A DNA stretch of 64,000 nt, taken from Haliea sp. (GTDB taxonomy: Bacteria; Pseudomonadota; Gammaproteobacteria; Pseudomonadales; Halieaceae). The stretch spans positions 1-64,000 of the forward strand of contig JAHEBL010000005.1 in assembly GCA_024642265.1 (NCBI GenBank), in the 5' to 3' direction. Under the pieces are notes generated by a model. The model was not told the origin of the DNA and did no database searches. It worked only from the letters and a program-made list of their open reading frames with translations. Below are positions 14,165-55,112 of the stretch, piece after piece (position 1 is the first letter of the stretch; every line of letters starts with the position of its first letter). The translations under genes were made by a program, and so were the position numbers.

Positions 14165-14204
14165 AATGTGATTACCTTGTGTTTGGGTTAAACCTCCACA
14201 TACC

Positions 14205-14243
14205 CCTGCAACCAAACCGAACCAGGCGGCACCCTGGAGCAGG
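14205..14243 (-). promoter_or_regulatory. Candidate S2-binding leader hairpin of rpsB
   Basis: In the rpsB leader RNA, CCTGC/GCAGG form an outer stem and CCAGG/CCTGG an inner stem, about 40-80 bases before the start codon. In E. coli and relatives, S2 represses its own operon by binding the rpsB leader. This nested hairpin is a candidate for that site. I did not fold it computationally or compare it with the known leader motif, so the assignment is inference. Confidence 0.38.
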
Positions 14244-14317
14244 TATTGATATGTGTGCGTCGTTTTTTTCTCCACAGCGCCGGGCAATTACTCACCCCTG
14301 CTCTCGCGGAGGCGCGC

Positions 14318-19140: not shown

Positions 19141-19794
19141 GTGCTGAAAGCCGAGCGCGCCGCCTATATTCTCCAGCGCCTGCAGCAACTGTACCCGCAA
19201 ACCCCGGTGCCGCTGGATCACCGGGACCCGTTCACCCTGCTGGTCGCGGTACTCCTCAGCGCCCAGTGCACGGATGAAAGGGTCAACCAGGTGACCCCCG
19301 CCCTGTTTGAGCTGGCCGCCACTCCCGAGGCCATGGCGGCGCTGGATGTGGAGCAGATCCGCGCGATCATCCGCCCCTGCGGCCTGTCCCCGCAGAAATC
19401 CAGGGCGATCAAGCGACTCAGCGAGATTCTGGTTGAGGAACACGACGGGGAAGTCCCCGCCGACATGGAAGCGCTGGAACGCCTGCCCGGGGTGGGCCAC
19501 AAGACCGCCAGCGTGGTGATGTCCCAGGCCTTCGGTGTGCCGGCTTTCCCTGTGGACACCCACATCCACCGGCTGGCCCAGCGCTGGGGTCTTTCCAGCG
19601 GCAAGAACGTGGTGCAAACCGAGCGAGACCTGAAGCGCCTGTTTCCCCGCGAGTACTGGAACCGGCTGCACCTGCAGATTATTTTCTACGGTCGCCAGTT
19701 CTGCACCGCCCGCGGCTGCGATGGCCGCACCTGCGAGATCTGCACCACCTGTTACCCGCAGCGCAAACACCCGAAAAAGACGCGCAAAGCGTAA
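19141..19794 (+). CDS. nth: Endonuclease III-like DNA glycosylase with unusual cysteine motif
   Basis: Endonuclease III is a base-excision repair glycosylase/AP lyase for oxidised pyrimidines. The 217-aa protein has the helix-hairpin-helix LERLPGVGHKTASVV with catalytic Lys121, and Asp139 in FPVDTHIHR. The C-terminal iron-sulfur region is unusual: cysteines at 188, 193, 198, 201 and 204, instead of the C-x6-C-x2-C-x5-C spacing of the E. coli enzyme. The start is GTG at 19141, 10 bases after dapC; the frame upstream is dapC shadow. It interrupts the usual dapC-dapD order. Confidence 0.88.
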   Translation: MLKAERAAYILQRLQQLYPQTPVPLDHRDPFTLLVAVLLSAQCTDERVNQVTPALFELAATPEAMAALDVEQIRAIIRPCGLSPQKSRAIKRLSEILVEEHDGEVPADMEALERLPGVGHKTASVVMSQAFGVPAFPVDTHIHRLAQRWGLSSGKNVVQTERDLKRLFPREYWNRLHLQIIFYGRQFCTARGCDGRTCEICTTCYPQRKHPKKTRKA

Positions 19795-19823
19795 TTCCAG
19801 GCTTTGTCGAGAATTACCTTGCC

Positions 19824-19978
19824 GTTCCACTCGCGACGGAGAGCGGGGGTTGCCTCGCTCCATGGCCGCGGCCCTCCGGGCTTCCCTCGGTCGGTCACGA
19901 GCCTTACAGCGCTACGCTGTCTCGCTCCACTCCCTCGGCGCTGGCCTTTTATATTCCGCGAGGCAACCCCCGCCCTCC
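19824..19978 (+). repeat. Palindromic repeat, copy A
   Basis: The head GTTCCA is followed by a 20-bp left arm (19838-19857) that is complementary, with one mismatch, to the right arm at 19959-19978. Between the arms is a 101-bp core that starts CTCCATGGCCGCGGCCCTCC and ends in GGCGCTGGCC plus an AT-rich stretch. The core matches copy B at roughly 85-90% by eye, without gaps. The arms do not match copy B in sequence. The family is probably a genome-wide structured repeat; I cannot confirm copy number from this window. Confidence 0.85.
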
Positions 19979-20055
19979 ACCGCACTGAGTTCAAACTATA
20001 AGGATTCAATCACAGCGCATTGCATTGAATGGGTTCGCATGGACGCCCGATGTGA

Positions 20056-20215
20056 GGCAGGGGTTCGGGTGTGTTCTGGCGAAATATTAAAGGCCAGCGC
20101 CGAGGGAGTGGCGGAAGACAGCGAAGCGCCTTAAGGCTTCCAACCGACTGAGGGAAGCCCGGAGGGCCGCGGCCATGGAGCCAGGACACACCCGAACTCC
20201 TGCCGACTTTGGAAC
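20056..20215 (-). repeat. Palindromic repeat, copy B (inverted relative to copy A)
   Basis: Read on the minus strand, it starts with GTTCCA and then shows a 24-bp arm (20181-20204) pairing 22 of 24 with 20056-20079. The arms contain TTCGGGTGTGTCCTGG, quite different from copy A. The inner core starts CTCCATGGCCGCGGCCCTCC and is collinear with copy A over about 100 bp. Different but self-complementary arms around a conserved core point to selection on the folded structure or to a hairpin-based element. Confidence 0.85.
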
Positions 20216-20249
20216 AAATGGATCCCTATAACTCGCTCAGCTCGACTGA

Positions 20250-20675
20250 TCACAGCGCCGCCAGGAACGCCCTCACCACCATCACCCAGAGCACAAGGGC
20301 GGAGAGAATGTAGACGCCAAAACGGTGCGCCACCCTGTTGTAGCTGCAGTGGATGAGGCTGTGCAGGCAGCGCAGCAGCAGGAAGGCCCAGGCGCAGTTG
20401 GTGTAGAAGCTGTCGACCTGCCCGGCAACCATCAGGTAAAGGCACAGGCCATAGAAAATCACCGGCAATTCAAACAGGTTCTTGAAATTGTTGCTGGCGC
20501 CGGAAACCTCGGCGGGAACCAGTACCTGCACGTCCGCCGGAGTCTTGAACTGTTCGATATCGAGCTTGTTGGACCGGGCATAGCCTACCCGCTGCACAAA
20601 CATACAGACCCATACCAGCAGGGTCAGGACCATCATGCCCAGCATGGGCAGGGCAAGATCGGTGGACATATTCAT
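20250..20675 (-). CDS. MAPEG-family membrane protein
   Basis: The 141-aa protein has four hydrophobic helices and the MAPEG hallmark around NNFKNLFELPVIFYGL. The family includes microsomal glutathione transferases and eicosanoid-pathway proteins, but bacterial members mostly have no proven substrate. ATG at 20675 has AGAGGTG 8 bases upstream; a TTG two codons earlier is the only longer option. It is transcribed against nth and divergently from the Spx/ArsC-like gene, so it is an insertion in the dap cluster and not part of it. Confidence 0.8.
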   Translation of the reverse strand: MNMSTDLALPMLGMMVLTLLVWVCMFVQRVGYARSNKLDIEQFKTPADVQVLVPAEVSGASNNFKNLFELPVIFYGLCLYLMVAGQVDSFYTNCAWAFLLLRCLHSLIHCSYNRVAHRFGVYILSALVLWVMVVRAFLAAL

Positions 20676-54967: not shown

Positions 54968-55070
54968 CCCGAAAGCAAGCCTGAGGGCATCAAAAAAATC
55001 AGCTTACCGTCCATTCCCGACAGAGCGCGCGGCTTGCCTCGGGATATCGCTTTCAACACTCGACGCCAGG

Positions 55071-55112
55071 CAGGGGGCCGGGACACACCCGGTCCCCTGT
55101 CGACAATGGAAC
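55071..55112 (-). repeat. Hairpin repeat related to the head of copy B
   Basis: On the minus strand it starts GTTCCA, then GTCGACAGG, and forms a 12-bp stem (55071-55082 with 55088-55099, one non-Watson-Crick pair) around TGTGT. The head and loop match copy B (GTTCCA-x2-GTCG-x-CAGG, CGGGTGTGTCC) at the same spacing, while stem bases differ. The 100-bp core of copies A and B is missing here. Confidence 0.62.

Follow-up and report, generated by a model that had tools for sequence, protein, structure and literature searches.

Two palindromes lie close together and in opposite orientation between nth (an HhH-GPD DNA glycosylase gene) and a MAPEG gene in a draft genome of Haliea sp. (242 contigs), the two genes being convergent. 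They belong to a stretch of 64,000 nucleotides that is referred to below as the window, and they raise the question of what is being kept in them: a sequence, a fold, or the fold of one particular strand. An earlier interpretation made from the letters alone (the sequence-only reading) had described an inverted pair with a conserved core and differing, self-complementary arms, and had suggested a structured RNA, a REP/BIME-like or otherwise transposable hairpin, or a single large cruciform formed by both copies.

The palindrome pair and its folding

The inverted pair, termed A and B, was recovered as a 135-nt inverted repeat (19838-19972 and 20066-20200) that is 82% complementary, and the cores, estimated in the sequence-only reading as about 85-90% alike, are identical at 86 of 99 positions (87%). 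Each copy does pair with itself, as had been proposed, and the pairing counts given at that time (19 of 20 and 22 of 24) were slightly low: copy A forms 26 of 26 pairs on the minus strand (23 Watson-Crick and three G-U) and copy B 25 of 25 on the plus strand (23 Watson-Crick and two G-U), with all non-Watson-Crick stem pairs on these strands being G-U (Table 1). None of 20,000 shuffles of the copy A 3' arm reached 26 pairs, the best giving 22. The description of the arms as almost entirely different was overstated, since in register they are identical at 15 of 21 and 10 of 15 positions; of the 25 stem pairs aligned from their inner end, A and B share 14, while two are changed on one side and nine on both.

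On the better strand, copy A (minus) and copy B (plus) fold with z-scores of -7.9 and -8.1 (0 of 200 shuffles as good) and with predicted energies of -93.4 and -86.9 kcal/mol, against -83.3 and -77.6 kcal/mol for the opposite strands, which also fold far below shuffled sequences (z -7.2 for A and -6.3 for B). The minimum-energy fold predicted for copy B differs from the consensus three-way junction described below, and the assignment of that junction therefore rests on covariation. The spacer between the paired units looks poorly conserved, and the region 19780-20260 contains no promoter-like or terminator-like match.

Table 1. Positions of the repeat units, their parts and related remnants within the window
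Feature	Position	Strand	Remarks
Copy A, a-type unit	19824..19978	-	folded strand reads leftwards from spacer; stem arm extends to 19983
Copy A 3' flank box GAGTGGAAC (folded strand)	19824..19832	-	flank text compared across genera, by inspection
Copy A P1 long stem, 3' arm	19833..19858	-	pairs 26/26 with 19958-19983
Copy A conserved core, three-way junction P2/P3/P4	19859..19948	-	model score 94.3 bits
Copy A P1 long stem, 5' arm	19958..19983	-	pairs with 19833-19858
Spacer between back-to-back units	19984..20047	.	promoter/terminator scan
Copy B 5' flank box CGATGTGA	20048..20055	+	CGATGCAA-like text in other genera, by inspection
Copy B, b-type unit	20056..20215	+	folded strand reads rightwards from spacer
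Copy B P1 long stem, 5' arm	20056..20080	+	pairs 25/25 with 20180-20204
Copy B conserved core	20090..20179	+	model score 95.0 bits
Copy B P1 long stem, 3' arm	20180..20204	+	pairs with 20056-20080
Copy B 3' flank box GACTTTGGAAC	20205..20215	+	flank text compared across genera
Remnant, a-type outer end, core gone	55010..55041	-	81% over 32 nt
Remnant, b-type stem and outer end, core gone	55071..55112	+	79% over 42 nt

Distribution of the repeat

BLAST searches of the Haliea sp. genome returned the window pair, two further copies (one running into Ns, the other at the edge of a contig) and several fragments, and a covariance model gave five matches there, one of them weak. Across 58 genomes including this one, BLAST located the repeat in five. 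With a first covariance model, built from 32 cores, 17 of the 140 genomes searched in Halieaceae, the host family, were positive (again including the host genome), in 7 of 28 genera; two of these genomes (G010 and G153) have at least 31 matches each. A second model, applied to the whole order, identified the repeat in 17 of 390 genomes, five of which belong to the host family; up to 11 candidates were scored per genome in this search. The 12 positive genomes outside the host family are filed in six other families, one of which (f213) may be represented by a stray contig and another (f222) by a weak match. One locus (L217, on G573:C25) is filed under another family yet has the arm type of the window's genus, and its contig is possibly misbinned. 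In a class-wide sample of 369 genomes, the host included, two others matched: a locus from another order (L129, in G251) has a convincing 22-bp stem and looks real, and the second (L231, in G433) lacks good arms and probably matched by chance.

The window palindromes are thus members of a dispersed, non-coding repeat family of marine Gammaproteobacteria. No description of this repeat was found in the open-access literature searched or in Rfam; the window and nine further loci gave no match for it at the Rfam gathering cut-off, and a permissive scan gave a lone, chance-level match (E 0.47) far below its cut-off. An origin in phages or plasmids was also considered and set aside, as the window pair matched nothing in the plasmids and phages searched, nor did one exact pattern in viral contigs.

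A conserved junction on a stem of free sequence

The unit, approximately 150 nt long, consists of a 5' box, a long stem (P1), a conserved three-way junction and a 3' box. P1 has a median length of 26-27 bp, and its sequence is free while its pairing is kept. The junction comprises P2, P3 (in which most copies have tandem G.A pairs) and P4 with a GGA loop, and its strands are conserved and purine-rich. Three alignments were examined for covariation. The first (A1, 32 rows, after omission of a copy containing Ns and another containing an insert) has both-sided changes in 15 of 25 pairs and a covariation of 0.300, compared to 0.109 after shuffling. The second (A2, 110 rows) has both-sided changes in 20 of 25 pairs and a covariation of 0.326 against 0.111 for shuffled alignments (0 of 500), with slid controls at or below 0.064. 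The third (A3) contains 20 further hits from genomes filed in other families, two of them on the doubtful contig of L217; it has both-sided changes in 21 of 24 pairs and a covariation of 0.507 against 0.151 shuffled and at most 0.152 in slid controls, values that lean toward the model, since an A2-derived model served both to find and to align these hits.

Arms were usable in 96 of the 110 A2 cores (14 being weak or cut at an end) and in 17 of the 20 A3 hits. The 96 usable A2 rows contain 80 distinct P1 arms, and 2315 of the 2603 pairs in these rows are Watson-Crick. Two P3 positions are G.A and A.G in most A2 rows (94 GA and 77 AG of 110) and Watson-Crick in the others. The many copies in the host and related genomes, mostly intergenic and with covarying structure, are what the sequence-only reading had named beforehand as support for a new repeat family. 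Some rows contain an extra hairpin within P3; a similar small GCCTGCCCCGCTTTATCGGG-like insert was seen there in different genera (L039:1531-1644, L143:1465-1571, L185:1177-1292 and L112:1501-1571). A stem mismatch, AGCGG opposite GCACT with close variants, recurs in five genomes (G014, G019, G077, G078 and G080).

The text at the foot of the stem is, by inspection, common to several genera, with a CGATGCAA-like sequence before the stem and GAC..TGGAAC-like or TGGCGAAC sequence after it; among the 96 Halieaceae arms, A most often precedes the stem (66) and G most often follows it (76). Within the window's own genus the outer ends are similar and read GTTCC...GGAAC. Their interpretation as terminal inverted repeats was weakened by two observations: other genera have similar 3' text (TGGAAC or TGGCGAAC) after the stem, and the repeated block of G010 continues past that text. 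Around the approximate ends, no target-site duplication of the kind that accompanies the terminal inverted repeats of a MITE of a DDE transposon was seen by eye. The possibility that the core had been inserted into a palindrome belonging to a host gene was rejected, since arm types recur together with the core across the loci of a single genus.

Back-to-back pairs and their gene context

Neighbouring cores in Halieaceae are arranged back to back, with the folded strands pointing outward, in 38 of 39 pairs; such alternating palindromic units, mostly intergenic and in many copies, correspond to the arrangement of BIMEs. Outside Halieaceae, 11 of 18 neighbouring pairs are back to back, five point in the same direction and two point inward. 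A single core is present at 32 of 71 loci, some of which lie at contig ends or beside Ns. Gene calls for the 71 loci, which were crude, place 24 between convergent genes, 21 between tandem genes and three between divergent genes, with 23 unclassified; by the same calls the core overlaps an ORF at three loci (L156, L165 and L177) and abuts one at another (L155). Most copies lie in intergenic positions, and divergent gene pairs are avoided. Among single units in tandem contexts (n = 11), five are sense and six antisense to their neighbour genes.

Genome G010 contains composites of about 570-830 bp (L130-L146) that, at most of the loci shown, comprise an outer hairpin (H1), unit a, the spacer, unit b and a second outer hairpin (H4). 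The tip of H1, when reversed, resembles that of H4, which suggests by inspection that the composite is a two-hairpin unit duplicated in inverted orientation. Both outer hairpins have conserved tips and long stems whose arms were distinct in all copies found by tip pattern (14 of 14 for H1, 12 of 12 for H4); their pairs are mostly Watson-Crick (384 of 421 and 303 of 325, respectively), and the tip is inverted in one of the 14 H1 copies (L131).

The fold is kept on one strand

The strand on which the fold is kept was assessed by counting G.T against A.C in the stems. Stem finding treated G.T and A.C alike, and strict stems were used; looser, over-extended arms that include noisy outer sequence gave a G.T:A.C ratio of 194:160. 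On the named strand, the Halieaceae arms of A2 contain 98 G.T and 35 A.C (77:22 in unique contexts), and the A3 arms 22 and 4 (19:2), or 20 and 4 (17:2) when L217 is left out. With every combination of genus, position and letter pair counted once, the stem ratio is 63:25 and the core ratio 45:18, and core cells contain G.A or A.G 236 times against 11 for C.T. Units on the two record strands have the same bias (52:16 and 49:23). That result, together with the placement of paired units on opposite strands at one place, indicates that a replication-strand effect is no explanation. Two genera have no clear bias (g16 with 11:11 and g18 with 4:3), which for g16 is partly due to the recurring stem mismatch.

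The outer hairpins of G010, which also have long perfect stems, contain 17 G.T and 20 A.C (in 14 H1 and 12 H4 copies identified by exact tip pattern). From the bias in core-bearing units and its absence in H1 and H4, it appears that one strand of the core-bearing unit is selected as a folded single strand, be it DNA or RNA, for both of which the test gives the same expectation. The earlier proposal that the fold rather than the sequence is kept therefore holds, and can be narrowed to the fold of a single strand. The further idea of one large cruciform as the functional form is not supported, since a strand-neutral cruciform would have no preference for G.T over A.C.

Turnover between congeners

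The site between nth and the MAPEG gene contains the full pair in G000, a shorter, rearranged and reversed version in G002, and nothing in G004; G001 and G003 have other genes after nth and so are uninformative. At a site on G002:C94, two genes identified from their C-termini are separated by 552 bp in G002; in G000 the interval between the same genes is 13 bp. Next to rplQ, a unit is present only in G004 among the four genomes matched, beyond an intact terminator, and the neighbouring gene also differs. These comparisons show that repeat sites turn over between congeners, with loss as possible as gain, because the relatives are too distant (about 70-87% identity); for the same reason, an exact empty site is not definable.

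Comparison with known repeats and the search for an enzyme

REPs are described, in the portion of PMC3733652 drawn on here, as interspersed, non-coding, intergenic sequences near convergent and unidirectional genes that form inverted dimers (including heterodimers) and have G.T pairs in their stems. Similarly to REPs, BIMEs and REPINs, the present repeat is mostly intergenic, occurs in inverted pairs and has G.T in its stems, and REP/BIME is the nearest of the identities that had been suggested. The REP hallmarks that we tested are nevertheless absent. The unit is about 150 nt long, compared to 20-50 nt for REPs, and is not a small hairpin; it has a three-way junction on a free-sequence stem of 26-27 bp, in contrast to the 6-13-bp stems of GTAG-family REPs. 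GTAG was found within 6 nt of the stem foot (allowing the first or last two stem bases) in none of the 96 Halieaceae arms and in three of the 17 arms from elsewhere, and CGTC at the 3' side of the stem foot in 13 of 96 Halieaceae arms, all in G010, so that the tag is not conserved.

Genomes that carry the element have 15 listed Y1 transposase genes, of which we examined 12, from 11 genomes; a model search for a unit gave 0 hits within up to about 3 kb of these genes, or less where a contig end cut the locus. A REP system in which a RAYT gene is flanked by the repeat was rejected on this basis. Five of the 17 element genomes, some of them incomplete, show no Y1 gene. Y1 genes are commoner in genomes with the repeat (12 of 17 versus 21 of 123, Fisher p 1.3e-5), a comparison that ignores phylogeny and that we do not count as a link. 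Inverted repeats of the GGGGTCAGAG or GGGGACAGAC type lie within 2.5 kb of the Y1 gene at five of the 12 loci (L194, L197, L198, L200 and L201), and repeats with GTAGGAGCGGC at another (L202, in G014) look like ordinary GTAG REPs. The former fit the GGGGWSAS motif of TIRtrons, whose inverted repeats, according to the same part of PMC3733652, accompany TIRYT transposases and are often in dimers. TIRtron-type repeats thus occur in some of the same genomes and resemble the present family in being inverted and often paired; they are separate from it.

Hairpins and short flanking boxes at the ends of IS200/IS605 elements are strand-specific and would play a similar role, and integron attC sites are recombination sites that act as folded single strands with variable arms. 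Unlike IS200/IS605 elements, the paired units at the loci surveyed for gene context have no coding sequence between them and are inverted relative to one another. Compared to attC sites, the core here is conserved and the arms vary.

Interpretation

We favor, with moderate confidence, the interpretation that the repeat is a dispersed, non-autonomous, REP/BIME-like candidate mobile element that acts as a folded single strand, and do not call it a REP. Its main rival is a structured RNA family, in which the folded strand would be expressed, by transcription running outward from the spacer or by read-through, as an RNA that is the functional or mobile form. Several traits are classic for RNA, namely a G.U preference on one strand, tandem G.A pairs, conserved junction strands rich in purines, and covariation; moreover, G.T pairing in REP stems and the location of REPs near convergent or unidirectional genes have been taken as signs of transcription (PMC3733652, in the part used here). 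Single-stranded DNA hairpins account for the strand bias equally well, however, and the lack of promoter-like or terminator-like matches around the window pair (19780-20260), the spacer that looks poorly conserved, the near-equal sense and antisense placement of single units and the Rfam results all argue against an RNA, so that we think this role possible and somewhat unlikely. An element acting at the 3' ends of neighbouring genes, as a bidirectional terminator or mRNA stabilizer, would agree with the mostly intergenic location and the avoidance of divergent pairs; the window pair has no T-run terminator (19780-20260), the rplQ unit stands beyond an intact terminator, units are lacking at the same sites in congeners and single units have no consistent orientation to genes, which makes this role very improbable.

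Compensated arms, from which the sequence-only reading had concluded that the fold is kept, are not in themselves proof of selection, since template switching in replication can also make them (as described in the part of PMC8794818 consulted). Palindromes that are complementary solely through this documented mechanism would need no selection for a fold, and the distinct, mostly Watson-Crick and strand-unbiased arms of H1 and H4, along with the inverted tip of L131, are as expected from it; template switching may be the source of both outer hairpins. By itself it yields neither a one-strand excess of G.T over A.C in core-bearing units nor a conserved junction in which tandem G.A pairs are exchanged for Watson-Crick pairs, and it leaves the stem mismatch that recurs in five genomes unexplained. 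We consider it improbable that the arms of the family stay complementary in this manner alone.

The mobile-repeat interpretation brings together the dispersal, covariation, strand-specificity, back-to-back pairing, gene-context preference and presence or absence between congeners described above, and the strand-specific fold would be consistent, by analogy, with mobility through single-stranded DNA that an HUH enzyme recognizes and cleaves, as in REPs and IS200. A trans-acting nuclease or transposase would recognize the folded strand, most likely single-stranded DNA, and copies would spread as a result, perhaps much as happens with REPs or the ends of IS200/IS605. Recognition would require the shape of the stem and thereby keep it paired, and template switching would help to restore perfect pairing. 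The E. coli TnpA-REP protein recognizes single-stranded REP and not its inverse, and a bulge in the stem matters (PMC8266576, in the part used here). A more far-reaching version, which we think rather unlikely and offer tentatively, is that the repeat represents a class of mobile structured element undescribed so far: a three-way-junction module of RNA or single-stranded DNA on a long stem of arbitrary sequence, spread through a gammaproteobacterial order, acting on one strand, arranged mainly in back-to-back pairs and mobilized by an enzyme that reads shape and two boxes rather than stem sequence.

The more than 100 aligned copies form a natural series in which the stem sequence changes freely while a one-strand fold is kept. 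They offer a direct test bed for the origin of compensatory changes (selection by way of G.U intermediates versus template switching), with the unbiased hairpins H1 and H4 as an internal control. If the repeat is mobile, it points to a shape-reading enzyme still to be found in these bacteria.

Two further observations were made in the course of the analysis. The window contains a match to t44 RNA (RF00127) at 14187-14277 on the minus strand (51.9 bits). Several genomes also contain another palindromic repeat family (L005 at about 1360-1470, L057 and L062), in which a CATGGATG-type core is combined with long arms of free sequence.
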